This document shows, piece after piece, positions 10,454-60,451 of a stretch of 64,000 nt of DNA. Source of the DNA: a virus. How positions within the stretch are numbered: position 1 is the first letter of the stretch; the number at the start of each line of letters is the position of its first letter. The stretch is taken from positions 62,001 through 126,000 of the IMG/VR virus record IMGVR_UViG_3300023179_000026. The stretch is one strand, 5' to 3'. Made by a program: the position numbers and the translations under genes. Below the pieces are notes generated by a model, which was not told where the DNA came from, made no database searches, and saw only the letters and a list, made by a program, of their open reading frames with translations.

Positions 10454-10977
10454 CTATGCAAACAACTCTTTCAATCTTGGCATGACTGAATTTAAATTAG
10501 TATATAACAATCCAATACCACCTGCTTGGTTAAATGCATCAATTTTTTTAGGTGTGTCATCAATAAGGACAGCAGGTTGATGACCATAGTTAGCATATTT
10601 CCATTTGTTAGGTTCAAAAATGGCTTTTTAGCTACTTCCCATCCTAAATTACTAGCTAACCAATCACGTTTACCTATTTCACTTGCTTTACGACTGTTTT
10701 TAGGATCTACGCCATCGCTGCGTAGCGGTGCACTTAATATGCGCCAATCAATTCGTTTATTGTCCAACCATTCTATCAATCGCATACCATCAACCATAGG
10801 TGGTAAAGAAGCAAAAAAATCTTTAACAGCATTAGGTCCCAACTTTCGTAGGTTATTTACCCTGCTTTCTGTATCAGCACCATCATAATTTAAGATAGCC
10901 TTATTAAAATCAGCTAACACACCATCCATATCAACAAAAACAAATGGTTTGGCTTTCGACACTTCAAAAATTTTCAT
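10454..10977 (-). CDS. HAD-superfamily phosphatase-like protein, interrupted by a one-base frameshift
   Basis: Residues 13-21 (FVFVDMDGVLADF) are HAD motif I with the nucleophile Asp. After WEVAKKPF the zero frame turns into non-HAD sequence and stops at 10492. Shifting frame at the A5 run (plus strand 10616-10620) restores 53 more residues. These include a textbook motif IV (PAVLIDDTPKKIDAFNQAGG) and a natural end (PRLKELFA) at 10454. One base appears to be missing from the homopolymer, by sequencing error, mutation or, less likely, frameshifting. The family dephosphorylates small phosphometabolites or nucleotides. The N-terminus MKIFEVSKA loosely resembles the putative capsid-targeting leaders nearby. 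It overlaps the upstream 142-codon gene by ATGA. Confidence 0.75.
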
Positions 10978-11390
10978 ACTCTACAATTCCCTATAACCTT
11001 AGTAATGGTTGTAAATTCACGTGCAATACGCTCATAAAACATTTCAGGTGGGCGTTCACTATAAGTACGATAACCCAAAGCAAGTTGACCCATGTCAACA
11101 TAATAGGATAAACTAGGCCAACGTTTTCTGTTGAGTTTTAACCCATCAATAAGTATACATTCTTCTGCTAGTCTTGTCAATGTAGCTTTTTTTGTTTCAC
11201 CCTCAGTGTTCATTGCTTCCATCAATTTTATGGCAATAGGTTCGTTATTCAGGTGTGGATTTTCCATATGTCTTGCAAACATGTGTACAGTAAATGCTTC
11301 AATTTCAGGGTCTAAATTGACACATGCAGCAGCTTCGGCGGCAATAATTACCTCGTAGCTATGCTTGACATAGGTCATCCAATGTTGCAT
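10974..11390 (-). CDS. hypothetical protein, about 138 aa
   Basis: The ATG at 11390 (MQHWMTYVKH) directly follows the stop of the GP88-like gene. A TTG four codons upstream is an alternative. The protein is mostly helical and Ala-rich (HSYEVIIAAEAAACVNLDP), with a Cys in LAEECILIDGLKLN. I recognise no family. It ends in an ATGA overlap with the HAD gene, so the two are coupled. Confidence 0.6.
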   Translation of the reverse strand: MQHWMTYVKHSYEVIIAAEAAACVNLDPEIEAFTVHMFARHMENPHLNNEPIAIKLMEAMNTEGETKKATLTRLAEECILIDGLKLNRKRWPSLSYYVDMGQLALGYRTYSERPPEMFYERIAREFTTITKVIGNCRV

Positions 11391-11391
11391 A

Positions 11392-12636
11392 TTAGTGTTC
11401 AAGTAATAGAGTTATAATTACATCATTACGGTTAGCACTATCGTCTCCATCGCCTGGGACTACGACAACGTTCCAATATGGTTCGCCATTTGATTTTACA
11501 CCATCTTTAAATGTCATCATTTGGTCATAGGTAATAATCGTATTTGGTTTAATACCATATTTTTGGGCAGCACGTTGTTTAAATGTTTCCCACGCTTCAG
11601 CATTTTTCCAACGCAATTTATTATTTGCATCACGTCCCATCAAATCAGTAAACATTTCACGGTCTACAATTTCACTACGTTTGACTTCTTGACCTGTTTG
11701 TTTTTTATAGATATCAACTTTTTTGTATTCACCTGATTTAGCACCCATAGAAAAATTAATTCTAAAGTTTTGTGGACGCTGACTTGTTGCTACATCGCCC
11801 ATTTTAGTATAGGCGTAAAATTGTACGTCAGGAAACTTTCTAGCTACATCATACGCCAAGTTTAAATATTCAGGGCTAAAGAAATCACCCGCATCATGCC
11901 AACGAATAATAACTTGTGTACCCTTTTTCTGATATTTTTCCCTAGCTGATTCAATTTCACTTTCAAGCATTGCTTTCCATCCATCAGGATCATTTAATAG
12001 AAAGTTTAATGACCTAGATCCTGCTTCAGATGGTGGGGCATATTGCACATAACCACCCTTCATAGCATAACATACTTGGACGCATTTACCTGCGCCTGGG
12101 CAGGTGTTGACTACTACAAATTTTTGTCTATCTTCATCAACTGCTAAACCAACTAATGCAGGTAATCCAATGTTAAAAAATATACTACTGCTTCCATCAC
12201 TATGTTGCATTTTTTCATTTTGTTTAAGCAACTTTTTAGGACGTTGCATAACAGATGCCATTAGTTTTGGTAAATCATATAATTGATTATTTCCATCAAC
12301 AATAGGTACTGTTCCACTATGAATATATGGGCGTATTAACTTATCTTGTTTAAATCGTTTGTAAATGTCATATTCCTCACCTGACATTTTTCCAAGCTGT
12401 TTTTTACTTGGTCTACGATACTTTTTTTGTAATTCAGGACTAAGTTTTCTACGAAGATAATCAGTTAACTCATCTTCAGGATAATCACGGCGTGGCGCAC
12501 CCAAAAATTTTTCAGCTTCATCTAATTCTTGTTCATCTTGAACAAACTGTTGCAACGACATAATTTGTACTCCTGAGGCTGCGCCTGGGAAATCAGACTT
12601 TAATGCATTTTCAAATAATAGTTCGCTAATTTTCAT
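11392..12636 (-). CDS. GP88-like protein with a capsid-targeting-like N-terminus
   Basis: The 414-residue protein contains a cysteine motif, NTCPGAGKCVQVCYAMKGG, followed by RWHDAGDFFSPEYLNLAYDV and FYAYTKMGD. This combination matches my memory of the phage 'gene product 88' family, whose biochemical role is unknown. The C-x6-C-x3-C spacing could bind metal or an Fe-S cluster (inference). The first residues (MKISELLFE, then NA) resemble the T4 capsid-targeting sequence, so the protein may be packaged in the head and cleaved after FE. Residues 45-110 are strongly basic. A late-promoter-like AATAAATA lies 20 bases upstream, with AAAGG before the ATG. Confidence 0.7.
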   Translation of the reverse strand: MKISELLFENALKSDFPGAASGVQIMSLQQFVQDEQELDEAEKFLGAPRRDYPEDELTDYLRRKLSPELQKKYRRPSKKQLGKMSGEEYDIYKRFKQDKLIRPYIHSGTVPIVDGNNQLYDLPKLMASVMQRPKKLLKQNEKMQHSDGSSSIFFNIGLPALVGLAVDEDRQKFVVVNTCPGAGKCVQVCYAMKGGYVQYAPPSEAGSRSLNFLLNDPDGWKAMLESEIESAREKYQKKGTQVIIRWHDAGDFFSPEYLNLAYDVARKFPDVQFYAYTKMGDVATSQRPQNFRINFSMGAKSGEYKKVDIYKKQTGQEVKRSEIVDREMFTDLMGRDANNKLRWKNAEAWETFKQRAAQKYGIKPNTIITYDQMMTFKDGVKSNGEPYWNVVVVPGDGDDSANRNDVIITLLLEH

Positions 12637-12655
12637 AGTAAAAATACCTTTACAG

Positions 12656-12663: not shown

Positions 12664-12668
12664 ATAAA

Positions 12669-13370
12669 TTAACCAAATCCAAACATACCATAATGTTTGG
12701 ACATAGCATATGGAGCAATGAATACTTTACCCCCAATTTTTCTCCATTCAGTACAAAAATGATAATCTTCAGATAACAAATTTACATCAATACTTGTTTG
12801 AAAAAATGCATATATAGTTCTTCCTGTATATTCATTCCAATTTCCAATATAGGTAGGCGTATGTGAGGCAAGTTTTTGAAAAACTTTTCGTTTAATTAAC
12901 ATATAACCTGTACCTGCATGAAGTACTTCTTTAAGCTTATTAGATTCAATGTCAATTTTTGGACTTTCATGATCTACGGGATTAAAGATATACCATGTAC
13001 TACAAAGAGATAATTTGTCAGTTGGGCAACCATTTTTAACTGCATTTTCTACCCATTCCCAATTAATCATTTTAGACGGGTAAATTCCACATATTAAGTC
13101 AACATTCTCTTGTAACATACGAATAACATCAGGTGGATTAATAATTATATCAGCGTCAAGGAATAATAAATGAGTACAATCGGATACCATAAAATCATTG
13201 ACAAAATTATCTCTTGCACGTGTAATTAACGATTGGTCATACATAAAATGGTATTCAAAATGCCATTTTTTCTTTCTAAATTCTTCAACTAATTTTATAA
13301 CGGAGTCAGCGAATAACCCGTGACATTGACCACCATACATCGGTGTGGCTAGAAAAACTCTTGGTTTCAT
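12669..13370 (-). CDS. GT-A-like glycosyltransferase family protein (copy 1)
   Basis: The 233-residue protein begins RVFLATPMYGGQCHGLFADS and carries HLLFLDADIII, a D-x-D motif typical of GT-A glycosyltransferases that bind a nucleotide-sugar through a metal ion. It also has ITRARDNFVNDF after the first strand, and CGIYPSK and HAGTGYMLIKRKVF later. The protein at 19739-20728 shares the same ordered motifs, so the two are paralogues. A GGAG site precedes the ATG. It may glycosylate DNA, a host surface structure or a virion protein. The donor and acceptor are unknown. Neighbours are the GP88-like and triple ADP-ribosyltransferase genes. Confidence 0.75.
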   Translation of the reverse strand: MKPRVFLATPMYGGQCHGLFADSVIKLVEEFRKKKWHFEYHFMYDQSLITRARDNFVNDFMVSDCTHLLFLDADIIINPPDVIRMLQENVDLICGIYPSKMINWEWVENAVKNGCPTDKLSLCSTWYIFNPVDHESPKIDIESNKLKEVLHAGTGYMLIKRKVFQKLASHTPTYIGNWNEYTGRTIYAFFQTSIDVNLLSEDYHFCTEWRKIGGKVFIAPYAMSKHYGMFGFG

Positions 13371-13426: not shown

Positions 13427-15730
13427 TTAGGATGAGCCAAAAAACTTATTCATCAAAGCTTTTTGTTTTTTAGGTTTTGCTCCAAGTACAGGACTAATAT
13501 TAGCTACCTTGTCAGTGCCACTTAAATATTTTGGGTTACGTTTGTCCTCTTTAGTATAACGTGGGTCTTTAGGATCATACTCAGTACCAAACGCACTCTT
13601 AACTTGTGACGAATTGAATATGATATAAGACATATCTATATAGTCAGCTTGTTTTTGCAAATACTGATGCGCTTCTTGCTCAGCTTCTTCAGGTGTATCA
13701 CCTTCACCAATAGGTAAAGTAGGCATAACATTATCAGGTAAATATGCTACGTACTTTGATCCTTCTTTTTTAATCGTAAAATTAATGCGCTCATCAGGTC
13801 GCAATGTTCGCTTACCTTCATTAGTATTACGATATTGTATACCATCATATCCCGCATCAAACAATGAACGTGCTAATTCAGCATAGATTGTTGCTTTACA
13901 ATCATCCCAATCCATGTCACGATCTCTACGAATTGCATCAAGTTCGTTATATTCTTTTTGGTTAATAATCTTTTTCTTAAATAAAAAATTCATAACTTGA
14001 CGTAAATGTTCTTCATCAGGACCAAATATGTCAGGCATCGTAAATGGGTTAGTAATCTTTAAATAAACAGGAATTACACGTGCTCCACTATATTTGGCAA
14101 ACTCATTAGCTGCTTCACGATTGCCAAAATGTATACCAAAATCACGATATAAATTTTTAAACGTTGAAAAATCATTAGATGTACCATGATATACAATCAT
14201 AGGAGCACCATTGGTATCAACTACTTTACTATTGCCAAACCACGCTCTTAAATTTTCCTCACGACCTTCTTCTAGTTCTTTTAGAAAACTCATTGACTCT
14301 TTGTTAATATTAGGATTAGTTGGGTTAAATTCACCTGTATTAAATACTGATTTAATTTGTGTATTATCAAATGCAACAATCTCTCTAATATCACCTATCT
14401 TAGCCCTACCCTGAAATATTATGCCATCATATCCTTCACTTTGTAATTGTTTCTTATATTGTATTGCTTTACTCATAGGCCATTTGTTCTCAATTTCATC
14501 AATCAATGATAACGGTTCAACTTTTGGCTTTTGTATGGACAAATATACAGGCATGATAACAGCATCGTCTTTGTCAAAACCACGTCCTGCATAACGTTCA
14601 GCATAAGATGGGTCATCCGTAAAAAAATGCCCTAGATGTTTTTGTGCCGTGTTAAATTTGGGATAGTTTTTTAATTTTCTGCCTTTCTGAAACACACTGA
14701 AGTCTCTATCAGTACCATGATAAACTCGTAATGGCTTACCACTTGCATCTACAATTTTACTATTTTTAAACCAATTTTTAAAATTTTCTTCAGATTTTAT
14801 ATCAATATTTGTTGCACTTTTAAGTTTAAGTTTAGGTTTTTTCTCTGCAGGTCTAGGTGTGTCAAAATCCACATCAATAACGTCAACTTTTTCTTCTTTA
14901 GTAATATCAGGTTCATCCCTACCAAATGTACCAACATTATATATAGACTTGATTTGATATTGTTCAAATGGGCGATAAGTTAAAATAATGGGTGTACCCT
15001 CAGCACCAAGTTCTAACTCTTTTCCATCACGTGGTTCATATTTCTGTGCACCTGCTTCAAAAACATCTTTTAAAATGACCCCATCATATCCCATACCTTG
15101 TAGGTAACTTACAATATCTTCACTATCTGCAATAGTATATGTATCTATAACCGTATTGTCTAGTGCATCCTCAATCGAACTAATATCGTCTGCTTCACCC
15201 CATGTGTCAATTTGATCGGAAAGGTCACGAAATCCTTTTATTCTAAAACCATCATCATCATAAGCATTAATTTCAAATCTTGCGCCTGTTTTGTATATGA
15301 TTTCATCTAAATCATATATCATATAGGACACATCTCTCCAACCTAGTTTTTTACGTCCACCATCAGGTACATTTAGATCGCTAGGCACCGTATTAATAAA
15401 ATCTATTAATGATATTGTTTCGTTATAACGGGTAAGGTCTAATGGTTTAACAATACGTAAATATGCTGCGATTACAGTAGAACCACTACCATATTGTCTT
15501 GTATCTAAATGTCTAGCATATACACTAGCTGCTGCAGGGTCATTCGTAAATGATGGTACTGCACGACCTTGTGTTAATTTAAATTCTGTGGCAGTAGGTC
15601 GCTTACGTGTACCACGATATACAACAAGTGGGTTGCCATTACTATCAACCACTTTACTATTACCAAACCAACTACGAAATGCTTTTGTCTCTCTAGCCTT
15701 TTGGTACTCTAATAACTGCCCAATTTTCAT
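13427..15730 (-). CDS. triple ADP-ribosyltransferase-like (ART-PolyVal type) protein, candidate injected effector
   Basis: The 767-residue protein has three copies of one module. Each opens with W-F-x-N-S-K-[VI]-V-D-x-x-G-x-P-x-x-V-Y-[RH]-G-T (near residues 21, 320 and 497). Each then has an A-x-x-[FY]A segment, a strand such as IPVYLKITNP, a GYDGI/V strand (near 214, 433 and 627), and QIKS[IV][YF]NxG or QVKSAFG. This is the ART-PolyVal fold found in phage polyvalent proteins, related to NAD-dependent ADP-ribosyltransferases. Module 1 has YRGT where modules 2 and 3 have YHGT. Module 3 holds an insertion near 650-690. The leader MKIGQLLEYQKA suggests head packaging, as for T4 Alt. It overlaps the Dps start by ATGA. 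Activity and targets are inferred only. Confidence 0.8.
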   Translation of the reverse strand: MKIGQLLEYQKARETKAFRSWFGNSKVVDSNGNPLVVYRGTRKRPTATEFKLTQGRAVPSFTNDPAAASVYARHLDTRQYGSGSTVIAAYLRIVKPLDLTRYNETISLIDFINTVPSDLNVPDGGRKKLGWRDVSYMIYDLDEIIYKTGARFEINAYDDDGFRIKGFRDLSDQIDTWGEADDISSIEDALDNTVIDTYTIADSEDIVSYLQGMGYDGVILKDVFEAGAQKYEPRDGKELELGAEGTPIILTYRPFEQYQIKSIYNVGTFGRDEPDITKEEKVDVIDVDFDTPRPAEKKPKLKLKSATNIDIKSEENFKNWFKNSKIVDASGKPLRVYHGTDRDFSVFQKGRKLKNYPKFNTAQKHLGHFFTDDPSYAERYAGRGFDKDDAVIMPVYLSIQKPKVEPLSLIDEIENKWPMSKAIQYKKQLQSEGYDGIIFQGRAKIGDIREIVAFDNTQIKSVFNTGEFNPTNPNINKESMSFLKELEEGREENLRAWFGNSKVVDTNGAPMIVYHGTSNDFSTFKNLYRDFGIHFGNREAANEFAKYSGARVIPVYLKITNPFTMPDIFGPDEEHLRQVMNFLFKKKIINQKEYNELDAIRRDRDMDWDDCKATIYAELARSLFDAGYDGIQYRNTNEGKRTLRPDERINFTIKKEGSKYVAYLPDNVMPTLPIGEGDTPEEAEQEAHQYLQKQADYIDMSYIIFNSSQVKSAFGTEYDPKDPRYTKEDKRNPKYLSGTDKVANISPVLGAKPKKQKALMNKFFGSS

Positions 15731-16167
15731 CCACGGTCTTTTTTCAATATGCTACGTAGCATCCATGAATGTTTTGCGTGACTATCAATACGTCCTGCTA
15801 TAAAATCAGCAATACCTTGCTCATCTTCTGCTTCACATTGATGGAATGTTTCTTTTAATAATACAATAATTTTTTGATTATCTTCGTACAATTCTGCCAT
15901 CATTAACTCAGCACGTGGGATTTGTTGTTGCTCATCAATAATACTTAACTCTTGATACCTTGTCATTGAGCCAGGCGCATATGAGTCTAACTGACGAATT
16001 ATTTCAGCTAATTGATCAATACTACCATATACTTCATTATATAAGTCACCTAAAAATGCGTGATACTGTGGAAAGTTTGGTCCTTCTACGTTCCAATGAA
16101 ACCCTGCTGCCTTAATATAAAAAGCAAATGATGTTCCTAACACTTGCTTTAACTTATCTTTTAACAT
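15727..16167 (-). CDS. dps: Dps-like ferritin-fold protein
   Basis: The 146-residue four-helix protein keeps the complete Dps ferroxidase pattern: H24, H36, D51 and E55 (FHWNVEGPNFPQYHAF then SIDQLAEIIRQLD). The spacings of 12, 15 and 4 residues match those in E. coli Dps. Such 12-mers oxidise Fe(II) with peroxide, store iron and may shield DNA. In a phage it could limit Fenton damage to viral or host DNA during infection (inference). It lacks the long basic N-terminal tail some Dps proteins use to bind DNA. Its start lies inside the end of the upstream 687-residue gene, and it overlaps the triple ART gene by ATGA. Confidence 0.88.
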   Translation of the reverse strand: MLKDKLKQVLGTSFAFYIKAAGFHWNVEGPNFPQYHAFLGDLYNEVYGSIDQLAEIIRQLDSYAPGSMTRYQELSIIDEQQQIPRAELMMAELYEDNQKIIVLLKETFHQCEAEDEQGIADFIAGRIDSHAKHSWMLRSILKKDRG

Positions 16168-18217
16168 TATTTTTACCTTCTAGCATATTTTTTTGTGCTT
16201 CATGACCTTCCATATACTCTGCTACATCTTTAATAAGTTCATCAGCACGTGTGATATGGTCTGAGACCCAACCTGGCAAGCCTTGTCCTTCACTTCTACC
16301 TTTAATTATCTTAGCAAGTGACATTGCATTTTTAATGGTAGATAATAAACTATTTACTGCCATTGATACTTCATGGTCAGGTTCCATGCGCTTAGCTTTA
16401 ACTACATCACCACGCATACGCATCTTACCAGGCATTACTATGAGGTCTTGTTCATTTAATCCTTCTTCATCAGAATATTGTGCATCACGTAATGCATCTT
16501 CAAAAATTTCATCTAATCCATAAATTGCACTTTCTAATTCATGCTTAGCTTCATAAACACGGCTATTATGATAATTAAAATCATCCATGTCTAAGTTATA
16601 AGTTTTTATTAGTTCTTCAATTTCTACCATAATTTCATTTACGGTATTATCGTATGCAATTCCTTTAGTAATTTTTCTAGCTTGCATTAAGGCACGTTCT
16701 AAATCATCTGCACGACCTTCGTTAATACTTTCGTTCTTAGATTTGTTACCCCAATTTTTTGCACCTGCTTTACGACATTTAACTAAAGCACCACTAGCAT
16801 ATGCACTAGGCCAAATTTTATAACGACTTTTTACCTTATGGTAGCATGCATCTTTTTTACCTTCAGTAAATAATGCTTCACTGACCATTTCACCATTACA
16901 TTGTGGGCAAATACCTTCTTTGACATAATATTCAAGACTTTCATTCTTAGTCTTGTTGCTTACCATATCAGCTTTACCTTGACGTTGCGGGTTTGGATCT
17001 TCACGGCGTTTTTTACGTACTGCTGCTGCAATAGCTTTTTTACCACCACTAGCACGTAATGATGCTGCCTTTTCTTTACTTAAGCATTTTGGTTTACCTT
17101 CACCTGCTTTACGTTCGCCACACTTACCAATACGCTCACCTTTAGTATTGTAACGATCCCATCCACCGCCACCTGCGCCACCTTCACCACCTTTGCCAAA
17201 CCATGCACGTAAATCTTCGCTTAATTGTTCAGCAATTTCACCTTCACTAAATTCTTTGCCAACAAGTTTATTACCTGTAACACCTTGAATAAGTGCCCAT
17301 GCACGTTGGAATTCTTTTTCTTTAATTAATTGGTTTAGTATTTCTTTTTGACGTGGATCTGCCATTTTAAAGAATTTAACCATTTCCATTGCACCGATAT
17401 TACCTTCATAACCTAGTTCCATCAATGCTTCTTCATTAGTATGAGATTGGTATTCATCATAATCCATATACATATCGGTATCACGATCATAATACTTACC
17501 TTCTTTAGGATCGTAATAAACAATCTTACCTGATTTTAAACGAAATGGTCCTTCTAACCCTTGGTCTGACATATCTGTATAACGTTCTTTATCAATTGGA
17601 GTTGATATTTTCCAACTTTCCTCTACATTTTGCTCTTTGTTGAAAAATGATACTTTTGGCAAACGGTTAAGTGCCCTAGAGAACCCGACAACAGATTGGT
17701 TGCGTTTTTCTGCAGGGCGTTTAGTTGGGTTCATGTCGTGCTTTTGTGCGTCTGCGGCAACTGCTTTGGCGTAACGTAAAACAGTAGCAGGTGACAGTTC
17801 ATTTATTTGGTTATCGCCTTCCCCCACACCTTCTTTCCTAATACCAAGTGTACCCGCAGGATTACCTCCACCAAACATACTAGCAAATGCATCGCTTGCT
17901 TGTTGTTTAGTATCTGCTTTTTGTTGTTTTTTTACTTCTTTCTTACTCGTAACCTTTTTAAGCATTGTTTTAAACTTATCATCATCTGTTGTTGGAGTAG
18001 TAGCTTCTGCCACAGTCTTTTTCTTTTTGCTACCTGCCCAATTACCCCACTCTGAAACACCACGCTCTACACTATTCATGTATTTTTTACCACTATCTGC
18101 AGTCTCATCCGTTTTTTCACGTTTGACTGTTTCTTTGAATAATGGTGTGGCAACAGTAGCAACTGAACCTGCTGTCATTTCATTAATTTTATCTAAGGTT
18201 TTACGAATATCTGACAT
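16154..18217 (-). CDS. large low-complexity protein with zinc-ribbon-like segments, probable internal virion protein
   Basis: The 687-residue protein is a string of small segments joined by charged linkers. Residues about 336-415 (DLRAWFGKGGEGG, a GGGGW-x-RYNTKG segment, CGERK..KCLS, KKAIAAAVRKKRRED) form a basic Gly/Lys-rich block. Residues 437-440 give CPQC, and 455-490 give DACYHKVKSRYKIWPSAYAS followed by VKCRKAG, a block common in marine T4-like phages. Glu-bearing cleavage-like sites of the T4 gp21 type ([LI]-x-E) recur (INE, LSE). This fits an abundant head protein cut by the prohead protease (inference). A late-promoter motif lies 22 bases upstream of the ATG. It is not homologous to anything of known function that I can name. 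Confidence 0.6.
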   Translation of the reverse strand: MSDIRKTLDKINEMTAGSVATVATPLFKETVKREKTDETADSGKKYMNSVERGVSEWGNWAGSKKKKTVAEATTPTTDDDKFKTMLKKVTSKKEVKKQQKADTKQQASDAFASMFGGGNPAGTLGIRKEGVGEGDNQINELSPATVLRYAKAVAADAQKHDMNPTKRPAEKRNQSVVGFSRALNRLPKVSFFNKEQNVEESWKISTPIDKERYTDMSDQGLEGPFRLKSGKIVYYDPKEGKYYDRDTDMYMDYDEYQSHTNEEALMELGYEGNIGAMEMVKFFKMADPRQKEILNQLIKEKEFQRAWALIQGVTGNKLVGKEFSEGEIAEQLSEDLRAWFGKGGEGGAGGGGWDRYNTKGERIGKCGERKAGEGKPKCLSKEKAASLRASGGKKAIAAAVRKKRREDPNPQRQGKADMVSNKTKNESLEYYVKEGICPQCNGEMVSEALFTEGKKDACYHKVKSRYKIWPSAYASGALVKCRKAGAKNWGNKSKNESINEGRADDLERALMQARKITKGIAYDNTVNEIMVEIEELIKTYNLDMDDFNYHNSRVYEAKHELESAIYGLDEIFEDALRDAQYSDEEGLNEQDLIVMPGKMRMRGDVVKAKRMEPDHEVSMAVNSLLSTIKNAMSLAKIIKGRSEGQGLPGWVSDHITRADELIKDVAEYMEGHEAQKNMLEGKNNVKR

Positions 18218-19738: not shown

Positions 19739-20728
19739 TTAAGCTTTTTCGGGTTCTTTGCTGCTAGGATCAATAGCTGCATGTGTATCTAATGCAGGGT
19801 TGACCGTAGTTGGTTTATAGGGAACTTCTTTTACTGAAGAATCTATAATAGTTACTTTACCATTTTGTTCCATAGCACCAACAAAAGCAGGTCCGATATG
19901 ATTAAACAAGTATTCTTGATTTTCCATGCAAAACACATATGAACCACTATGACGTAGCAATACTCGTTTATCAACCCAAATACGTCCACCTAAGTCACGC
20001 CAATTTTCACACATTGTCCAATCTTCACTATAATAACGATTTTGACGAACCGCAGTATCAAAAAATGTAGCTAAATGTTGGTCATAAACAGGATCTAAAC
20101 CAATATCATTTTTGTAAGGTTTTACAGCAGGATGCTTTTTAAGTTTTTCAAACACATGACGTTTTGTTAATAGAAAACCTGTACCTGCTTTACTTACTTC
20201 TTGTAGCCCATCAGCACCTTCTTCCGCACCTTCAAAACCATTAACCACCCATTTAATGGGCATAGTTTTCATAGGGTATAAACCACCAATCACGTCTACA
20301 TTACGATTTAACAATACTAGTAAGTGCCATGGTTCCCAACCAATATCAGCATCAACAAAAAACAAATGTGTAGAATCTTTTTGATGTAAAAATTTAGCAG
20401 TTAATGTGTTACGTGCTCTGCTGATAAGTGATTCATTAACCATGGTTTCTAATGTCCAATCCACCCCAAGCTGACGTGCGGTATTGGCAAACTTGATAAA
20501 TGACATAAAGGTAGATTCAGTCAACATACCGCCATAGCATGGCATTGCCACGTGCGCTTTTGTAGTACGCAAGAAATCTACGTTTACTTGTACTTGTCCT
20601 TGTTGTGGGGCTGCGGCTTTTTTAGCCTCTTCTTCGGAAACTGTACCACCAATGCTTGCAGCTTGTGATGCTTTATCAGCAAGCTCTTGTACAGCTTCTA
20701 CGGGAATTTTTGCTTGTTCTGTTGTCAT
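19739..20728 (-). CDS. GT-A-like glycosyltransferase family protein (copy 2, with N-terminal extension)
   Basis: The start at 20728 (MTTEQAKIPVEAVQEL) follows GAGGATCAAT and gives 329 residues. A helical Ala/Glu-rich extension of about 50 residues precedes a catalytic region parallel to the 233-residue paralogue: HVAMPCYGGMLTESTFMSF, ESLISRARNTLTAKF, HLFFVDADIGWEP (D-x-D), GGLYPMK, KAGTGFLLTKRHVFEKL and YSEDWTMCENWRDLGG. It likely binds a nucleotide-sugar. The target is unknown. A strong terminator follows, and a small unknown gene lies 52 bases upstream. The two copies flank the triple ART, Dps and internal-protein cluster. Confidence 0.75.
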   Translation of the reverse strand: MTTEQAKIPVEAVQELADKASQAASIGGTVSEEEAKKAAAPQQGQVQVNVDFLRTTKAHVAMPCYGGMLTESTFMSFIKFANTARQLGVDWTLETMVNESLISRARNTLTAKFLHQKDSTHLFFVDADIGWEPWHLLVLLNRNVDVIGGLYPMKTMPIKWVVNGFEGAEEGADGLQEVSKAGTGFLLTKRHVFEKLKKHPAVKPYKNDIGLDPVYDQHLATFFDTAVRQNRYYSEDWTMCENWRDLGGRIWVDKRVLLRHSGSYVFCMENQEYLFNHIGPAFVGAMEQNGKVTIIDSSVKEVPYKPTTVNPALDTHAAIDPSSKEPEKA

Positions 20729-20780
20729 ATTGATCCTCAAAAATATGTAAGGATATTTACACAGAAAAAATGAGGTGAAA

Positions 20781-33637: not shown

Positions 33638-34003
33638 CTAAATTGTTTTATCGCCCATGGTTTCATCCATGACAGGTTCGTCACTAACTAATAAAATATC
33701 ATCATTGTCAACTTTACGAATGATGTGTTCTCCACTATCGTCCATAATTTTAATACCTCTAGTCCATCGTCCATGAGTTACTAAAATATATTGACCTACT
33801 TTAATCTCTTGTTGTTCAGGACCGATTGCATACACCTTGCCCCAACGTGGTCTAATACCACTATTTTTTCCATCATCACTAACCACCACAATACCTGATG
33901 AAGTTTTACGTTCTTCAAAATTCATTTCTGATACAATAATTGCATCATGTAATGGTGTAACTTTATGTACTCGATGTGCTTCAAATAAATGTTTTGTATC
34001 CAT
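33638..34003 (-). CDS. GroES-like co-chaperonin (gp31-like)
   Basis: The start at 34003 (MDTKHLFEAHRVHKVTPLHD) follows AAAGGATATC and gives 121 residues. The GroES fold text is visible: KVTPLHDAIIVSEMNFEERK, TSSGIVVVSDDG as the mobile loop, RPRWGKVYAIGPEQQEIKVG and GIKIMDDSGEHIIRKVDNDD. Like T4 gp31 it would replace GroES on host GroEL to fold the major capsid protein. It belongs to the chaperone theme with DnaJ and ClpA. Confidence 0.82.
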   Translation of the reverse strand: MDTKHLFEAHRVHKVTPLHDAIIVSEMNFEERKTSSGIVVVSDDGKNSGIRPRWGKVYAIGPEQQEIKVGQYILVTHGRWTRGIKIMDDSGEHIIRKVDNDDILLVSDEPVMDETMGDKTI

Positions 34004-40189: not shown

Positions 40190-40807
40190 TTACCTCTGTA
40201 AAATCTTTAAGGCAGCTTCGTAATGTTTTTTTCTATCTTCAATTCCAATAGTGCCGCCATTTATTCTTTTTGTTAACATAATAAAATCATTTTTATCACA
40301 ATATTGATTTAACTTGTTACTGTCCCAAAACCATCCTGCACTAGCCACAGCACCTGCATGAGTTTCCATATATGCAACTACTTCATCTATTTCAATTCCT
40401 AGTGATTTTGCAAATTTAGTGTAGTTTACTTTACCTGTTAATTGAATCAATCCACGTCCACAAAATTTCCACCCATCACCACTTGCTTCATCTCCATTGC
40501 CCATACGATTTGCATAAACACGATTGGCAATTTTTTCAGGTTTGCGCTCATAAGGTTTTGCAGCAGCTTCATTTGGAAAATATTTCTTAAAAATTTTTGT
40601 TAAACCTTGTGAGCTATAATTCAAGTTTTCTTTAAGATATTGATACCCACCACTTTCATGTCCTGTTTGCGCTAAAAAACCTGCAATACGTTGTGGCGTA
40701 TTAATTTCATAATGTTCACATGTTTGGTTTAATGGTTCAATAAATGGTTCTAATTTTGCAGCAGGAGTTTTGTCGCACACTGCTCGTAAAATTTCTAATG
40801 TTATCAT
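40190..40807 (-). CDS. GH19-type endolysin (chitinase/lysozyme fold)
   Basis: The 205-residue protein has the GH19 pattern: AGFLAQTGHESGGYQYLKEN with candidate catalytic Glu51 and Glu60 (in ENLNYS), then GDGWKFCGRGLIQLTGKVNY and AGWFWDSNKLNQYCD. GH19 phage enzymes cleave peptidoglycan (muramidase-like). No signal peptide is visible, so it needs a holin, and a candidate lies at 25.6-26.1 kb. It overlaps the large fibre gene upstream by TAATG and abuts the adhesin gene by 1 base. It may instead be a virion-associated hydrolase because it lies between fibre genes. Confidence 0.88.
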   Translation of the reverse strand: MITLEILRAVCDKTPAAKLEPFIEPLNQTCEHYEINTPQRIAGFLAQTGHESGGYQYLKENLNYSSQGLTKIFKKYFPNEAAAKPYERKPEKIANRVYANRMGNGDEASGDGWKFCGRGLIQLTGKVNYTKFAKSLGIEIDEVVAYMETHAGAVASAGWFWDSNKLNQYCDKNDFIMLTKRINGGTIGIEDRKKHYEAALKILQR

Positions 40808-43800
40808 TACATTTTTCCTATAACTATTTCAATGACACCTTTGTCACCGTCAAAATTTTGTAAAGCTTTTCCTATAATTGTTCCTGCCCTAGCTTGGTTG
40901 TTTGCAGCGGCAAATCCATTAGGTGCACTAACCATAAGATCACCCTTCTTAACAGGACCACGTACTTTGGTTGGTACTCTACCTTGTAGTGCTAACATGA
41001 CTGTATGTGGTGCTTCTAAAGTTGCATTCATAACATATGCAGGATTAGTTGATACAACTCCTGCTACTTTTGTTGAATCATACTCGTACGATAATGTAAC
41101 TTCCTTATCACCATCAAATAATAATACAGTGCCACTTGGATACTCATCATCAGATTCATAATATTCTGCCAAGTCAGCGTAAGTAGCATTAAGTTTTGAG
41201 CCACCACTTAATGACCAATTACCTGTAATTGTTCCTGCTGTACCGCTACCACCTGTTGTTAATGTCGTGCCATATAGTGTAGCAGATGCGCCACCTAGTT
41301 GACCATTTGAATTAACATTACCTGCATTAACATTAGCTGTTACATTTGCATTAGCAGTAACATTTAAGTTACCTGTTACGTTTGCATTTGCACTGAATGT
41401 TGCCAATTGTGTAACATTAAGATTACCAGGCATATTTACCGTTGCATTACGGATATTTGCAGTTCCTGATGTTGATCCTAATACTAGTGTAGTTGCTGCA
41501 CCAAATGCATTTACTGTAGTTGCATTAGTATTAATAACGTTAAAGGACGTTTGATTTGTTGTAATGTCACCACCAACCACATCTAAGTCAGCACCCAATA
41601 CTAAATTATTATTTACTGTGGTATTACCTGTGGATGCACCAATAAACACATTCGTCGCTTGCCCACCAAAGTATATGGTAGTTGCTGTAGTGTTTGCAAT
41701 ATTAAAGTTAGCAGTTGATACCGTTAATGAACCACCATCAATGTTAACATTTCCATCAACATCTAAGTTATGATTAATATTTGTATTTCCTGTAGCAGCA
41801 CCAATTTCAATCGTAGTTGCTGCACCAAATGCATTAACTGTTGTTGATGTTGTATTCCACAAATTAATACCTGTTTCTGTTCCTACAACGGTTGGATTAG
41901 AAATGGTTACTGTGCCTGTATTAGCACCAACATTAATTGCTGTAGCTGCATTACCAAAGTTAATTGTAGTAGCTACAGTATTAAACAAGTTTTGTGTAAT
42001 TTGTGAACCAACAATTATTGGATTGCGTAACGTCATAGTACCACTAACATTACCTAAATTGATAGATGTTGATTCACCACCAATATTAAGAGTAACTGCT
42101 GTAGTATTGTATAAATTTTGAGTGGTTTGTGTACCAATCAATGTTGGGTTTTGTATTGTTGCTGTGCCACTTGTAGCACCCATCGTAAGTGTCGATGCTG
42201 ACCTTGCAAAAAACATTGTAGTAGCAACATTATCATATAACTGCTGTAATGTGTTAGCACCATAGACAGCAGGATTTCTAATTAACATCTTAGATCCTGC
42301 ACTGTTTTGACCAATGTTTAATGTTGTTGCTTGTCCACCAAGATTAACTATACCTGCTGTGTCATTGACAATATTAAAAGTAGCAGCAGTTGTTTCAATA
42401 TTACTTTGAGTACTATCACCAAAAAGTGCTATAGATTCACCACTACCTACACCACCTGCATTACTACCAACACCTAAATAGTTTGCTCTGACATTAGAAC
42501 CAACATTTAATGATTTAGCAATACTTACACCACCTGCTGTGCTAAATGAAGCACTTGTATCTACTGAATTAGCAGAATCTGATGTATTGGTTATGGTAAT
42601 AATTGTATTACTTATTGTACCATTACTGCTATTACCCACCAAGTATAAATTACCACCAATAAACACATCTTTAGCAAAACCGCCACCACCTGCTACTTGT
42701 AACGCACCACTTAAATATGAATTGTTAGTTGCATTTTGTGTGCCACGAATTAGTACAACCCCTGTGCCACCACCATTACCAATAGTAACGTTAGGATCAA
42801 CTGAAGCACCAAGATTAATTGATGTTGCATTACCTGCAAAATTCATCGTTGCTGTTACAGTATCATATAAGTTTTGGGTTGTTTGCCCTGCTGCACCAAC
42901 AACTGTATTACTACGTAAAGTTAATGTACTATTAGCTGCACCTATATTTAAAGTATTAGCTTGTCCAAATGCGTTGACTGTATTAGCTATTGTATTGAAT
43001 AAACTTAATGATGTTTGTCCTGAATCACCAACAATTGTATTACTTCTTAACATGAGTGTACTATTTGCTGCGCCCATGTTAATACTAGATGCTGCACCAA
43101 ATGCGTTAACCGTAGTAGCCACTGAGTCAAATAGTAGTTGAGTTGTTTGTCCTGCACTACCAACAACATTGCTTGCAGATAATATCATAGTTGCATTAGA
43201 TGCACCCATGTTAATCAATGATGCTGCACCAAATGCATTTACAAAAGTTGTTACAGTGTTAAAAACATTTTGCGTCGAACTTGTTCCAACAATGGTTGGA
43301 TTTTGCAACGTTAATGTTCCTGAATTTGCACCTATTCTTATGGTTGATGAATTACCTGCAAAATTCATTGTAGAAGTGGTTGCGCTATCAAACAATGATT
43401 GTGTTGAATTAAGTGGGTATCCTATAATGTTTGGTGTTCTTATTTGTGTATTGCCTGTAGTAGCACCAATAGTTAATGAACTTGACCCAAGTGCAAAATT
43501 TAATGTACTTGCATTATTAGGAAATAGTGATGTTGAATTACTCGTTGTTTCAATAACACCTGTAGGCGAAATTGAAACTACAGCATTAGCAAAACCATTA
43601 CCACCTGCATTATTACCAATGTATAACGAATTAGCTGCAACACTTGAACCTACATGCAGTCTCTCACCTATACCTGCACCACCTGCTACGGTAAATGCAC
43701 CATTAGCAGAGTTTGCGCTACCCTGAATGCTATTAATAGCAAATGTGCCTGTTATTGAAGTATATACGGTATTACCACCAACATACAAATTACCGCCAAT

Positions 43801-45509: not shown

Positions 45510-48500
45510 TTACTTAATACCTGCTAATTTTAACCAACCATCAAGACTTTCACTTTCTACCACAGGACGTACTTGTGTTTTAGGAAGTGTAGTGTTATCA
45601 ACTTTAGGACCATTTAATCCACCACTTAAAGCTTGTAACATATAATTCATTTCTGTTTGGAATTCTTCATCACTTAATTTATTCTGTGGTGAATTTGCCC
45701 ATTCATCAACTTTTTTCTTATCTTTTTTATCATCGTACTCAATATCTTTGGTTACTTTTTTACCTGCTTTTTCAGCTTTGGCATCATCTTTACCTTTATG
45801 ACCTTCATCATACTCGATATCTTTAGTTACTTTTTTACCTGCCTTTTCTGCATGTTCATCTTTTTCAGCAGTAGATTCTTCAGCAATCATTGCTAATTTT
45901 TTGAACAATCCCTCAAAAGTGTAACCTTCTTCATCTAACTTATCATGTTGAGCACGAATTTTAGCCATTTCTTCTTTGCTCGCACCATCACGACCTGCTT
46001 GTTGAAGTGCTTTCATACCTTCTTCACCATATTTCTTTTTACCAAGATATGCTTGTAGCGCACTTTCTTCAACTTCATCTTCGTGCATGGCTTCCATGTA
46101 ACCGCATTCATTGCACTCATGTGCTGATTCTTCCATAGGTGAACCACACTCCATACAAGACTTTTCTTCAAATGTTGCAGGTTGATCTAATGCTTCTTCG
46201 GGTACATATGATGCTGCTAAACCTGCATCACGCATCGCTTCAGATCTTTCATCTTTTTCACCTGCTACATCTGTAGGATCATCTGCATCATAAGAATCTT
46301 CTTTGATATCTTCGTCATCGTCATCTTTATCTTCAGATCCACCATAATGCTTACCTGCATGATGTTTTGTTACACCATCTTTGCGCTCAATACGACCACC
46401 TGTTGATGATTTTTCTGAATGATCTTTATGATCCTCATCATCAGCTTCTTCAACTTGTTTTTTATAACCCATTGCTTCATATTTTTTAATTACATCAGGC
46501 TCATCTCGTACTACAATTTCTTTACCTGATGTTTTATGAACCATCATACATCTACCACCTGTATCGGGTTTAGCTCCCATATCGTCAGATTCTTTTTGAA
46601 CCTTTTCCATATCACCGTCACCATCTAGATCTGCTTCTTCTTTGCCTTGTTCTCTAGCTTTAAGCAAATTATATGTAAAACGATTACCTTCTTCTACTTC
46701 AGCTTCATCCATTTTGTTAGCCATTGGACTCATACGAGCATCTCCTGGGCTAGCGGTTTGTGTTTGACCTTCGTCACAACTAGCTGCCTCAACAGGTGTA
46801 CCAATCATTTTTTTCAAGAATGATAGATCTGTATCACCGCTATCATCATGCTCATGACCACCTAATTGACCTAATACTTCATCTTGCCCTGTTACTTCAG
46901 GCTCATCACTATGTATTTCACTTGCACCACCATGACCAATACCTGCATTGCGTAGTAATTCCATCATAGATTTAGCGTCCTCTCCTGATGCACTTACGCT
47001 AACGCTATCTTCTGCACCCATTGGACCACCTGTAGAAGTGGTAACAGTTAATCCTTCATTCAAAAGTGAATCTAATTGTGACTGCCAACTTTCTTCTACT
47101 TTACCAAATTTTTTACCTTTATGTTTTGAACGAATTGCAAACTCAATTTGGTTTTGTTTTTTATACTCAGGTGACCCTTCTTTATGTGGTCCTGATTTCT
47201 TTAACTTTGATAACATGCTTTCTAACTCATCAATAGTTTTATCAGCATATTCACCTGTTTTTTCAATCTTTGCATCACCTGCCCATTTTTCATCAAGGCG
47301 ATCACCCTTATTAAAGTAGCTTACTACATCATCTAATTCATTGAATGCTTTATCGCCTTTAACGCCTGGGATTTTGAACCAAAAAGAATTTGATGGAAAA
47401 TGATACATACCTTTAGCAACTACTTCGCCATCTACTTTGACCACATAATCTGCAGGATGACCATCAATAAAACCTTGATGTATCTCTACATTTCCAATCT
47501 TTTTAAGAGGTTTATACATATGATCCTCTTTCAATGATTTAACTTCGTAGCCCATTTCTTTATATTTTTTTCTATTTTCAGGTGTATCTTTTATAACAAG
47601 TTCTTTACCTGAGGTTTTATGAGTTACTGTTACAGTTTTTTCTTTTTTAGTGATTGGTCCCATATCATCTGATTCATTAACTGCTTTATGTTCCACATCG
47701 GCTAAATGAGCATCAATTCCTGCAGTATTTTTCATACCCCAATATGCTGCTGCTTTTTTAGCTGCTTCATAACTTGAAGATGCTTTGCATTCATGCTTAC
47801 CTTTTTTAGCATTTACACATATATAAGAGCGTTCTTTACTATCACTTTCATACGTCATTGGACGTTGGGTTGTTTCAAAGGGAGTTTTTCTCATACTTGG
47901 TTCCAATTCTAATTGTTTGTTTAATTCACGATTTGCTTGTTGCTGTGGCACCAAGTCTACTGTACGTGATGCCCCTACAGTATCTAATGTAGCAGGTTGA
48001 CGCATACTTGGGGGAAGATCGTATTCCTTTTTTTCTTCACTAACATATCCTGTATCCTCCATATAACATTCTTCAACATACTTTCGTAATTCTTCGAGCG
48101 GACCATGCCATATTTTACGTGGAATACGACCTTCTTTATAATAATGGTCACATAGAGCCTCATAAAATCCTTCATCCATTGCCCAACCTTCTTGACACAT
48201 TTTGTGCTCATGTGGATAAGCTTCTAAAATTTCTTGTAACTTACCTTCCATGATAGGTTGTTTATCAGCATCAGCACTTTCATACATACTTTCATCTTTC
48301 TTATGCTTTTTGTTATATTCATCCCATGCAGTAGCATAAAGAACACCTTCCCAACGATTACCATATTGTTTTTTGAATGCTTCTTTTCTACCTTTAATCC
48401 AATCTTCCATGCCTGGAGGGGCAACTTCTTCTAAGTTTTCCTCACCTAATGCAGTAACTTCTTTATTCTTTACTGCTTTATCTAATGCAGCTTTTAATGG

Positions 48501-48890
48501 ATCATTGGGATCCTTAAAATCTATTACTTTCATGCCAATAGCAGCATTACCCGCAGGACGTGATGTTGCTGATGGTTGTGCTGCTGCACCAATTGAAGGC
48601 ACTGCTACTTGACTTTGATCAAGTGCAACTTCATCAAGTTGTTTTTTAGTAGCTTCAATTTGTTCCATATATTCTTTAAGCTTATGTGATACACTTGTTT
48701 TACCAACTTCTTTAGCAGGTTTTTTACCAATCATATCTTGAATATCTGCACCACCACTTGTGTCTAACTCTTTAGATGGTTTATCATCTTTGTCATCATC
48801 TTTTTGTGCAGTACCACCATAGGCTTTACCCGCAACTTTGCGATTTTCTTCCAACTGTTCAAGTTGTGCAATAATTGTTTTTAAATCCAT
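45510..48890 (-). CDS. giant acidic/basic low-complexity protein, probable internal head protein
   Basis: The start at 48890 (MDLKTIIAQLEQLEENRK) follows AAGGAAAG and gives 1126 residues. The protein is a chain of repeats. A HKTSGKE[LI]V[IV][KR]D module occurs twice, near residues 417 and 783. AEKAGKKVTKDIEYD is duplicated near the C-terminus. A Cys4 zinc-ribbon-like segment is present (CMECGSPMEESAHECNEC). Charged linkers dominate. [LI]-x-E sites typical of T4 prohead protease targets recur (LNE, LKE, LDE). This suggests a head-internal protein processed and possibly injected (inference). A terminator follows it and the 205-residue protein precedes it. Confidence 0.6.
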   Translation of the reverse strand: MDLKTIIAQLEQLEENRKVAGKAYGGTAQKDDDKDDKPSKELDTSGGADIQDMIGKKPAKEVGKTSVSHKLKEYMEQIEATKKQLDEVALDQSQVAVPSIGAAAQPSATSRPAGNAAIGMKVIDFKDPNDPLKAALDKAVKNKEVTALGEENLEEVAPPGMEDWIKGRKEAFKKQYGNRWEGVLYATAWDEYNKKHKKDESMYESADADKQPIMEGKLQEILEAYPHEHKMCQEGWAMDEGFYEALCDHYYKEGRIPRKIWHGPLEELRKYVEECYMEDTGYVSEEKKEYDLPPSMRQPATLDTVGASRTVDLVPQQQANRELNKQLELEPSMRKTPFETTQRPMTYESDSKERSYICVNAKKGKHECKASSSYEAAKKAAAYWGMKNTAGIDAHLADVEHKAVNESDDMGPITKKEKTVTVTHKTSGKELVIKDTPENRKKYKEMGYEVKSLKEDHMYKPLKKIGNVEIHQGFIDGHPADYVVKVDGEVVAKGMYHFPSNSFWFKIPGVKGDKAFNELDDVVSYFNKGDRLDEKWAGDAKIEKTGEYADKTIDELESMLSKLKKSGPHKEGSPEYKKQNQIEFAIRSKHKGKKFGKVEESWQSQLDSLLNEGLTVTTSTGGPMGAEDSVSVSASGEDAKSMMELLRNAGIGHGGASEIHSDEPEVTGQDEVLGQLGGHEHDDSGDTDLSFLKKMIGTPVEAASCDEGQTQTASPGDARMSPMANKMDEAEVEEGNRFTYNLLKAREQGKEEADLDGDGDMEKVQKESDDMGAKPDTGGRCMMVHKTSGKEIVVRDEPDVIKKYEAMGYKKQVEEADDEDHKDHSEKSSTGGRIERKDGVTKHHAGKHYGGSEDKDDDDEDIKEDSYDADDPTDVAGEKDERSEAMRDAGLAASYVPEEALDQPATFEEKSCMECGSPMEESAHECNECGYMEAMHEDEVEESALQAYLGKKKYGEEGMKALQQAGRDGASKEEMAKIRAQHDKLDEEGYTFEGLFKKLAMIAEESTAEKDEHAEKAGKKVTKDIEYDEGHKGKDDAKAEKAGKKVTKDIEYDDKKDKKKVDEWANSPQNKLSDEEFQTEMNYMLQALSGGLNGPKVDNTTLPKTQVRPVVESESLDGWLKLAGIK

Positions 48891-48900
48891 AATACTTTCC

Positions 48901-49518
48901 TTATTTTCTCGCACCTGTTTCGGGTCTTGGTGGTCTTGTAATTGTAGTCATTGGACTCTTGTTACCCATAGTTGACATAAACTTTTTCTGATCAAACGGG
49001 TCAAAAGCAGGTTTAGTTTTATCACCTGCATATGGCATCTCTATTTTGTCTTTTTGTTCAGCAGCACGAATACGTGACATATATTGTTCTCCATACTCCT
49101 TACTAGCTTCTTTACCATCATCTTCTAATTCAGTATGATCTAATACAGGACTATGCTCCATTTGATTAGCATATTGCTCAGCTTCATGTGTTACACTGTC
49201 ATCGTATCCTGCTTGTATCATACGAACCATGTTTTCATCATAATTTAACAAACGTGCAACTTGCTTGACCATTGGCTCAGTGCATGGATATCTAAATTCA
49301 ACATCAATAATCCATACTGATTGATTCTTTAATTGTGGAAATCCATAGGGATCTTTTTGTATAGGTGTACTTTTTGGTTCGCTCATTTTTACAGGATCAA
49401 ATTTCTGCAAATTGTACATAAAAAGGTCTAACCAATTTCTGTCACAATCCCCTGCAACTTTGATCTTGTAATTATAAGTGCGTACACTTTCAGCTAAATA
49501 TTGACGAAAAGTTTTCAT
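48901..49518 (-). CDS. protein with T4 IPIII-like capsid-targeting leader, 205 aa
   Basis: The leader MKTFRQYLAESV is strikingly close to the T4 internal-protein leader as I remember it (MKTYQEFIAEA): nine of the first eleven positions are identical or similar. In T4 this leader sends IPI-IPIII into the prohead and is cut after AE by gp21. The rest contains CDRNWLDLFMYNLQKFDPVK and FRYPCTEPMVKQVARLLNYD, then a charged helix and a Pro/Arg tail. It is therefore a likely internal protein. It lies downstream of gp16 and has its own late-promoter-like box. Confidence 0.7.
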   Translation of the reverse strand: MKTFRQYLAESVRTYNYKIKVAGDCDRNWLDLFMYNLQKFDPVKMSEPKSTPIQKDPYGFPQLKNQSVWIIDVEFRYPCTEPMVKQVARLLNYDENMVRMIQAGYDDSVTHEAEQYANQMEHSPVLDHTELEDDGKEASKEYGEQYMSRIRAAEQKDKIEMPYAGDKTKPAFDPFDQKKFMSTMGNKSPMTTITRPPRPETGARK

Positions 49519-58738: not shown

Positions 58739-58780
58739 AAAAGTATTTAGTGTAAAAGTCTTAAAAATGACCTTTAACAC

Positions 58781-58794: not shown

Positions 58795-58801
58795 TTGCGC
58801 A

Positions 58802-58809
58802 TATAAATA
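58802..58809 (+). promoter_or_regulatory. late promoter for the HNH gene
   Basis: A perfect TATAAATA on the plus strand, 5 bases before the ATG at 58815. The transcript would be almost leaderless. Confidence 0.6.
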
Positions 58810-58814
58810 GCAAA

Positions 58815-59159: not shown

Positions 59160-59769
59160 TTTTTTTATGTAAATCATCAATAGTAGAATCATTTTCAATA
59201 ACAGCATCAAATTGTAATCCACAATGGCTATATTCACTTGCATGAATTTTTGCATGTTCTAATTCATTTCTTGCTAGTGCCCATCCCATATTTTTTGGTC
59301 CTGAGTTGTATGATACTGCTGCTTCATACCAAGACGGTTCAGCACCACGCTTGACACGAACAACAATACCACCTGAACGATGTATAGCATCAACTTCATT
59401 TTTAAAACGACAATCTGTTATAACAATGTTATCTTCAGTTTTAATCAACTTACGTTCTACGCTAGCTACCCATATTTCATCATGAAAGTGATTACGAAAT
59501 AATTCTGTGCCCCAATGTTGTAGTATCATACGTGGAGTAAGATTGGGTATACCTAAACGTTCAGCCCACCATGTATCTACTTGTTCTCGCCATAGTCTAC
59601 TCGATTTTGTTACTCCATCAAGCATTTCACGATCCCATCCAAACACAGCAGCTACTGTGTCTTTTAACGACTCAGCAAATGAAATACGCCTAAATCCATG
59701 CTCATCAATTAAGTAACTTGCTATAGTGTCTTTACCACTGCCAATTAATCCGCAAATTCCAACAATCAT
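59107..59769 (-). CDS. 1: deoxynucleoside monophosphate kinase (gp1-like)
   Basis: The start at 59769 (MIVGICGLIGSGKDTIASYL) follows GGAGGGCATT and gives 220 residues. The P-loop is GLIGSGKDT. Further text: GFRRISFAESLKDTVAAVFG, LTPRMILQHWGTELFRNHFH and NIVITDCRFKNEVDAIHRSG fit T4 gp1, which phosphorylates dNMPs (including modified dCMP) for replication. T4 gp1 has 241 residues. The last 53 bases run antisense to the HNH gene. Confidence 0.88.
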   Translation of the reverse strand: MIVGICGLIGSGKDTIASYLIDEHGFRRISFAESLKDTVAAVFGWDREMLDGVTKSSRLWREQVDTWWAERLGIPNLTPRMILQHWGTELFRNHFHDEIWVASVERKLIKTEDNIVITDCRFKNEVDAIHRSGGIVVRVKRGAEPSWYEAAVSYNSGPKNMGWALARNELEHAKIHASEYSHCGLQFDAVIENDSTIDDLHKKINSLLQDRQLSIQSVYA

Positions 59770-59821
59770 AATGCCCTCCACATAGGCGTATTATGTCATA
59801 CTTATTACAGATTTCAAGTAA

Positions 59822-60451
59822 TTACGATTTTTGTATGTTCCAAGTTGCAATTTTAGATGGTACGATAACTCCTCTTGGTGCACTAAATTTACCTATATCT
59901 AATGTATCTTGCCACCATACACCATCATAGCCTAATTCTTCTGCATAAAGTGGTAATACATAATCAATCACTGAAGTTGGGGTCATTCTTGGATTTTTAG
60001 TCAATGTTTTTAGTTTATCAGTTGGTTTATACGACCCTGCTATTTTCTTAATATCGCTTTCATCATCAGCTTCAATTTTAGCTTGCTCATATGAATCATA
60101 ATCTGAATAAACTTCAGAATCTAGCTCATCATCATAATAACTAACACGGTATACAATACTTGGTTCTAACAAACCACTTTTAACTGCCCATTGTTGTATT
60201 TCACTTTTAGCAGTCTTATTTAAATTATTAGCACTTAAAAATTTGTTACCACTTTTTTGTAGTACATAGGTATCCCCTGTTACAAATCCTTTTGCAATTC
60301 TTCTCCATGCATCAGGATGTGTACTTACACTTAGCCCTGCACCTTCGTAACTGCCTTCACGCTTTTTAGATGCATCTAAGTTACCAACGTGATATAATTG
60401 CTTAAAACTTTTTGTTGGTATTTTAGATTCAAATAAGTCACTAATTCGCAC
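59822..60451 (-). CDS. ADP-ribosyltransferase-like protein with capsid-targeting-like leader, 209 aa
   Basis: The start is a GTG directly after the gp13 stop, with leader MRISDLFESK resembling the proposed head-targeting leaders here and the ELFDE of T4 Alt. The body has FKQLYHVGNLDA and GAGLSVSTHPDAWRRIAKG near the start, then LGYDGVWWQDT and a closing strand FSAPRGVIVPSKIATWNI. This layout (LYH-G..., S-x-S, YDGV) parallels single ART modules in the 767-residue protein and other phage ART-like toxins. The catalytic triad is not proven. Acting inside the newly infected host is inferred. Confidence 0.55.
   Translation of the reverse strand: MRISDLFESKIPTKSFKQLYHVGNLDASKKREGSYEGAGLSVSTHPDAWRRIAKGFVTGDTYVLQKSGNKFLSANNLNKTAKSEIQQWAVKSGLLEPSIVYRVSYYDDELDSEVYSDYDSYEQAKIEADDESDIKKIAGSYKPTDKLKTLTKNPRMTPTSVIDYVLPLYAEELGYDGVWWQDTLDIGKFSAPRGVIVPSKIATWNIQKS

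Follow-up and report, generated by a model that had tools for sequence, protein, structure and literature searches.

In bacteriophage T4, the internal proteins IPI-III and Alt carry an N-terminal capsid-targeting sequence that is cut by gp21 (PMC9026906, PMC3012670). The first 10 residues of IPIII suffice for packaging; targeting depends mainly on positions 4 and 7, and processing on positions 8 and 10 (PMC9026906). Polyvalent proteins were proposed by Iyer et al. in 2017 to be injected with the DNA and released by embedded metallopeptidases (PMC5512222). Here we analysed a 64,000-nucleotide stretch, referred to as the window, which corresponds to positions 62001-126000 of a 136,878-base virus record (IMGVR_UViG_3300023179_000026) and encodes several proteins with a similar N-terminus. 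Comparison of these proteins with their homologues indicated that the shared N-terminus is probably a T4-type capsid-targeting leader, used as a portable tag on unrelated cargo, some of which would be cut as chains by the head protease.

An earlier note on this DNA had proposed that five proteins of the window begin alike. This was borne out for four of them (w48901, w11392, w13427 and w59822), for which both coordinates and N-termini were right. All four open reading frames (ORFs) lie on the minus strand, and their leaders are 8-10 residues long with (L/I)xE at the end, matching the T4 gp21 rule. The fifth protein, placed by the note at 10454-10977, does not contain the xE; its MKIFEVSKA ORF actually spans 10492-10977, the remainder to about 10454 being in another frame. 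When a leader was defined by hydrophobic residues spaced i, i+3/4 and a terminal (L/I)xE, w48901 and w11392 fitted in full, w13427 and w59822 had 8-residue variants retaining the site, and w10492 failed. A leader of this kind is common to non-homologous proteins. As the note had suggested, the start of w48901 is close to the T4 internal-protein leader: it has the same register as IPIII and is the best T4 match of the set (IPII and IPIII start with MKTYQEFIAE/A, the slash marking the cut here and below). The w11392 leader has the same spacing as IPIII and is shorter by one residue. The corresponding features are:

48901-49518, minus strand: w48901, 205 residues, leader MKTFRQYLAE/S (ORF, homologue comparison)
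49489-49518, minus strand: w48901 leader codons 1-10, in the T4 IPIII register (aromatic residues at 4 and 7, L8, E10)
11392-12636, minus strand: w11392, 414 residues, GP88 domain (PF17338), leader MKISELLFE/N, second site ELDE/A
12610-12636, minus strand: w11392 leader codons 1-9, with E9 as putative P1 residue
12517-12609, minus strand: putative second propeptide segment of w11392, residues 10-40, conserved (L/V/I)xE end at E40; low-confidence part of the AlphaFold model, with the fold directly after it
13427-15730, minus strand: w13427, 767 residues, leader MKIGQLLE/Y, three ART-PolyVal modules
59822-60451, minus strand: w59822, 209 residues, GTG start, leader MRISDLFE/S
10492-10977, minus strand: w10492, NT5C-like phosphatase, broken frame; leader MKIFEVSK is degenerate and has no Glu

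The GP88-like domain that the note had assigned to one of these proteins was confirmed in w11392 by a match to the Pfam profile PF17338 (E=6e-37). Homologues were found at 80 loci, representing 50 distinct N-termini. A leader ending in (L/I/V)xE followed by a small residue was present in 46/50 of these vs 14/467 neighbouring ORFs (p=2e-48, a value that overstates independence because the homologues are related). At least five dissimilar leader types were found, including MNFRKLIKLVTE/G, MDIRNILNIITE/N, MKTFKQHLNE/A, MALRQFRHFISE/G, MSLKPFKHYIAE/A and MYSFAGFIVE/T. In the GP88 alignment, the P1 Glu (E9) was kept in 18/20 sequences and most surrounding residues were variable. A second site was evident at residue 40, with Glu in 19/20 rows and a hydrophobic P3 in 20/20, one shifted row being allowed. 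AlphaFold modelled residues 1-39 with low confidence and a fold from residue 40 on (numbering without the first Met). Two phages without a T4-type head, Gilgamesh of Streptomyces and Lilbunny of Mycobacterium, have GP88 proteins that lack such a leader; these are only two cases. The gp21-type protease S77 was not found in Gilgamesh, and no S77 search was made in Lilbunny. The GP88 domain of w11392 (window 11392-12636) also contains a conserved Cys motif, TCPGAGxCxxxCYA, and an HDAGDFF motif. A fold search gave the radical-SAM protein NifB as best match (E=1e-3), with a low TM-score; this match is insignificant and serves as a lead only.

Tracing the homologues of w59822 and w10492 uncovered multi-enzyme proteins encoded by other contigs, made of GNAT, polyA-polymerase head, NT5C, ParB-like and other modules. 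Such polyvalent-type chains in kin include L126 (polyA-polymerase head, NT5C and others) and the GNAT chains L119/L123. In five to six families, the same module was found both alone behind a leader-xE and fused behind xE. The w59822 module occurs in other phages alone (MKITDFINE/A) and within polyproteins (AFNE/A, QFNE/A); homologues of w10492 elsewhere carry the full leaders MLIREIISE/, MLINDIINE/ and MKIIELIE/. Pairs of single and fused forms were MKITDFINE/AKDGL and AFNE/AKDGL, MLIEEIISE/VSKEEF and SVNE/VSKEEF, MRLNELTE/ALDNPYP and SITE/AFDNPYS, and MLIREIISE/KPESKPIVY and VFE/GPESKPIVY. The NT5C-like frame of the window breaks before the end of the domain, and the w10492 leader is without the P1 Glu. 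In L038 and L040, which are close relatives, the open frame is longer, and the break (window 10454-10977) may be a sequencing error or real decay.

Module junctions were scanned without requiring a leader in the single-module protein, counting (L/I/V/F)xE within -9..+8 of the junction. The pattern was found at 34/47 junctions and peaked sharply at the junction itself; random positions gave 12.1 +/- 3.0. As a control, multidomain proteins outside this set but from the same genomes had the pattern at 8/38 junctions vs 6.2. The search range had been widened from -9..+2, which gave 20/36 vs 5.6 in the chain set. This unbiased scan replaces a first automatic one in which the subject had to have a leader and which gave noisy output (60/222 exact); a figure of 17/19 exact-register junctions is disregarded, because those junctions had been picked by hand. 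A Pfam scan of four chains from kin detected no peptidase or metallopeptidase domain. In the window, the only proteins with several modules are w13427, with repeated ART, and w16154. The module behind E334 of w16154 occurs alone in contig G007, as MLIEDIITE/DLRAWFGKGKKGG.

16154-18217, minus strand: w16154, 687 residues, polyprotein-like, start MSDIRKTLDKINE/M
17216-17218, minus strand: w16154 putative junction, codon of E334, AEQLSE/DLRAWFGKGGEGG

The note had also assigned ADP-ribosyltransferase (ART)-like modules to two proteins. This assignment was right for w13427, which matches ART-PolyVal three times (PF18760, E=4e-58) and whose leader was kept in three close relatives only. It was not confirmed for w59822, which gave no Pfam or PHROG match, an hhalign probability of 0.3% and no Foldseek match from a low-confidence model (pLDDT 62). 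The three copies in w13427 are:

14789-15685, minus strand: ART copy 1, without the C-terminal catalytic-type Glu
14258-14788, minus strand: ART copy 2, YHGT and REIVAF motifs kept; its linker to copy 3 contains LEE/G
13430-14257, minus strand: ART copy 3, without the C-terminal Glu

Enrichment of the leader was measured with three regular-expression (regex) classes, built from the leaders of T4 and kin and then frozen; the expectation came from composition-preserving shuffles of residues 2-17. In the whole 137-kb record, the regex matched 7/1,747 possible starts: four of the proteins named in the earlier note and three new ones, the latter all outside the window. Among predicted genes of this record, 5 matched vs 0.27 expected after shuffling, an enrichment that is partly circular because the proteins of the note helped to shape the classes. 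In G006, 15/303 proteins matched vs 0.45 expected, some of them known before the classes were fixed; G005 is not independent of G006 because it repeats G006 proteins. In two genomes new to the scan, matches were 4/425 vs 0.5 expected (G004) and 4/161 vs 0.2 (G007). No protein matched in two phages in which S77 was not found (0/220 and 0/101).

The tail sheath placed the virus closest to large T4-related myoviruses, namely Agrobacterium Atu_ph07, Sinorhizobium Phosso, Pseudomonas PA5oct and Salicola SCTP-2. The genomes of these relatives measure 287-490 kb, and the record is therefore a fragment. An S77 protease is present in all four relatives and in several environmental contigs. The close kin G009, an 83-kb contig, has both S77 and the w48901 protein at 91% identity. 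Among contigs holding multi-module chains or their modules, S77 was found in 3/21; most such contigs are fragments.

w48901 lies within a conserved late block, adjoining gp4-like and small-terminase-like genes, and its orthologue in PA5oct, EST35_0202, was identified as a virion protein by mass spectrometry (MS). Because of this conserved block and the MS-detected orthologue, w48901 is probably not an effector but a conserved head or core component bearing the same leader. Further PA5oct virion proteins start in a similar manner: EST35_0238 (MS-annotated, MKIKDILVE/S) and EST35_0205 (MKLFEVFTLYE/D). Relatives of EST35_0205 in G006 and G004 bear other leaders (MRANEFLIE/Y, MRAIEFLIE/Y, MRANQFLRE/S), and the G004 protein also has a fused ART-PolyVal segment, whose Pfam match is weak and falls below the cut-off. 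The window at 45510-48914 encodes a Glu-rich protein of about 1,126-1,134 residues with repeated modules, ending in WLKLAGIK; proteins of PA5oct and Phosso at nearby positions also have short LAG(I/V) motifs.

We interpret the shared N-terminus as a capsid-targeting leader because the P1 Glu and the hydrophobic P3 are kept while the remaining leader diverges, and because it precedes unrelated proteins. For w11392 (GP88) and for the w59822 and w10492 families, this reading is well supported by sequence comparison. The leader would be short and amphipathic and would bind to the core of the prohead, leading to enclosure of the cargo. An S77 gp21-type protease would then cut after the Glu of (L/I)xE, freeing the cargo to exit with the DNA. 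In this phage, the tag is carried by GP88, the triple ART protein, w59822, w48901 as the one conserved head protein, and three proteins that lie outside the window; on the NT5C protein it is decayed. The sequences themselves establish the leader, the kept P1 and P3 residues, its exchange among cargos, the sites at junctions and the presence of the protease gene in kin. We infer that GP88, ART and NT5C proteins are present in the virion, cleaved, ejected and active on the host. The reading of the earlier note is thereby partly supported; injection of these proteins as effectors would be a further step, and w48901 is probably not among such effectors. Because related phages join tagged modules with the same site at the junctions, one leader could bring a whole chain into the prohead, where the head protease would cut it into its modules, with DNA packaging and ejection to follow. 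We lean towards the hypothesis that the head-maturation protease doubles as a polyprotein protease, cutting effector chains behind one leader at (L/I/V/F)xE before DNA is packaged, with modules gained or lost by insertion between sites.

Several observations weigh against the capsid-targeting reading. No S77 gene was found in the 137-kb record, which is a fragment, and the GP88 protein of L102, an S77-bearing genome, lacks the first leader. The distant orthologues of w48901 in PA5oct and Phosso are without the P1 Glu, indicating that not all orthologues have the cut site. A profile trained only on the GP88 leaders of other phages found 4 proteins in the genome of the window vs 1.7 at the 1% level (p=0.097). 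Enrichment over background, put forward in the earlier note as a check, was obtained by regex (in part circularly), among GP88 homologues and in other genomes, and was weak with this profile. With the frozen classes, no excess was seen in Phosso (2/496 vs 0.8 expected) or G003 (0/153), both likewise new to the scan, and that of PA5oct was marginal. MS evidence is limited to the w48901 orthologue and unrelated leader proteins of PA5oct. In this phage, the first pattern was found in 5/93 MS-detected vs 3/352 undetected proteins, a modest difference (p=0.012; length-matched p=0.057), and the frozen classes in 2/93 vs 1/352 (p=0.11).

Three other explanations were considered. The tagged proteins could belong to the core or scaffold and use their leaders in head assembly, rather than being effectors delivered to the host. 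The position of w48901 in the late block and its orthologue in the virion agree with this, as does the leader on EST35_0150, a small PA5oct virion protein encoded beside the portal gene (MKINDIITE/G), and on its G007 relative, encoded near the protease gene (MRSNEFLVE/Y). However, GP88, ART-PolyVal, NT5C, polyA-polymerase-head and GNAT modules are enzymes or enzyme-like, patchily distributed and typical of polyvalent proteins, and we regard this explanation as unlikely. It is still less probable that the proteins are packaged and left uncut, the leader targeting the prohead and the xE belonging to the binding helix. T4 leader mutants can be targeted without processing (PMC9026906), and both the NT5C protein described here and the PA5oct and Phosso orthologues of w48901 keep the hydrophobic pattern without the Glu; yet xE recurs at internal module junctions, where a targeting helix is unneeded, and at E40 of GP88, immediately before the fold.

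Met-Lys-hydrophobic starts are common among phage proteins, and the resemblance might be due to chance. The weak enrichment of the other-phage profile would fit this, as would the loose (L/I/V)xE pattern, which gave no clear excess over the whole proteomes of this virus or PA5oct. Chance is already contradicted by the homologue comparison, in which 46/50 GP88 N-termini carry the leader vs 3% of neighbours, and by the excess over shuffles in G006, G004 and G007, making it a very improbable explanation. The capsid-targeting leader remains the reading that we favour.

Other genes in the record were also noted. The window at 33638-34003 encodes a GroES/gp31-like co-chaperonin with an extra N-terminus of ~13 residues, MDTKHLFE/AHRVH, which looks like the same leader; its PA5oct homologue has no such extension. 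Outside the window, a leader-bearing ORF (MLIKEILTE/STNRK; record G000:C1, start 21125, minus strand, L002) is missed by simple gene calling, which picks a start upstream of it. At 40411-40758 and 40761-41462 of the same record (L003), adjoining leader proteins start with MRFREFIIE/D and MKLTELNE/S, the latter being a weak homologue of the PA5oct virion protein EST35_0237. Two related glycosyltransferase-like proteins (PHROG 1574; window 12669-13370 and 19739-20740) lie on either side of the GP88/ART cluster, and a Ferritin/Dps-like DNA-binding protein (window 15727-16167) is encoded between w13427 and w16154.

If this interpretation is correct, the tag and its cut site would allow the packaged cargo of large T4-like phages, environmental ones included, to be listed from sequence alone. 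It would become testable which proteins act on the host as infection begins, with ADP-ribosyltransferases, GP88 and nucleotide phosphatases as examples. The interpretation would also explain how polyvalent proteins are delivered and released, the release having previously been ascribed to embedded metallopeptidases. Literature searches, covering open papers only, found no report of head-protease sites between polyvalent-protein modules. Like polyvalent proteins (PMC5512222), the proteins described here combine ART, GNAT, nucleotidyltransferase and ParB-like modules in multi-domain chains; unlike them, the scanned chains have head-protease-type sites at the junctions instead of a metallopeptidase. 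In phage P1, an N-terminal signal similarly directs a large antirestriction (polyvalent) protein of the Dar system to the head, and processing is presumed for other Dar proteins; P1 has a different predicted protease (Pro), and the parts of the P1 work available to us do not describe a repeated xE junction pattern. In SPN3US-type heads (PMC5694885, PMC10052503), packaged proteins also lose propeptides to the head protease, which in some cases cuts at several sites, but these propeptides are mostly much longer than the T4 leader, in contrast to the short leaders on enzyme modules found here. The T4 internal proteins and Alt share with the present set an N-terminal leader of 8-10 residues, spaced hydrophobic residues, the (L/I)xE end, unrelated cargo including an ART, and S77, found here in kin. 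The set differs from them in its cargo (GP88, ART-PolyVal, NT5C and others), in its several leader lengths, in the second GP88 site and in its chains with internal sites.

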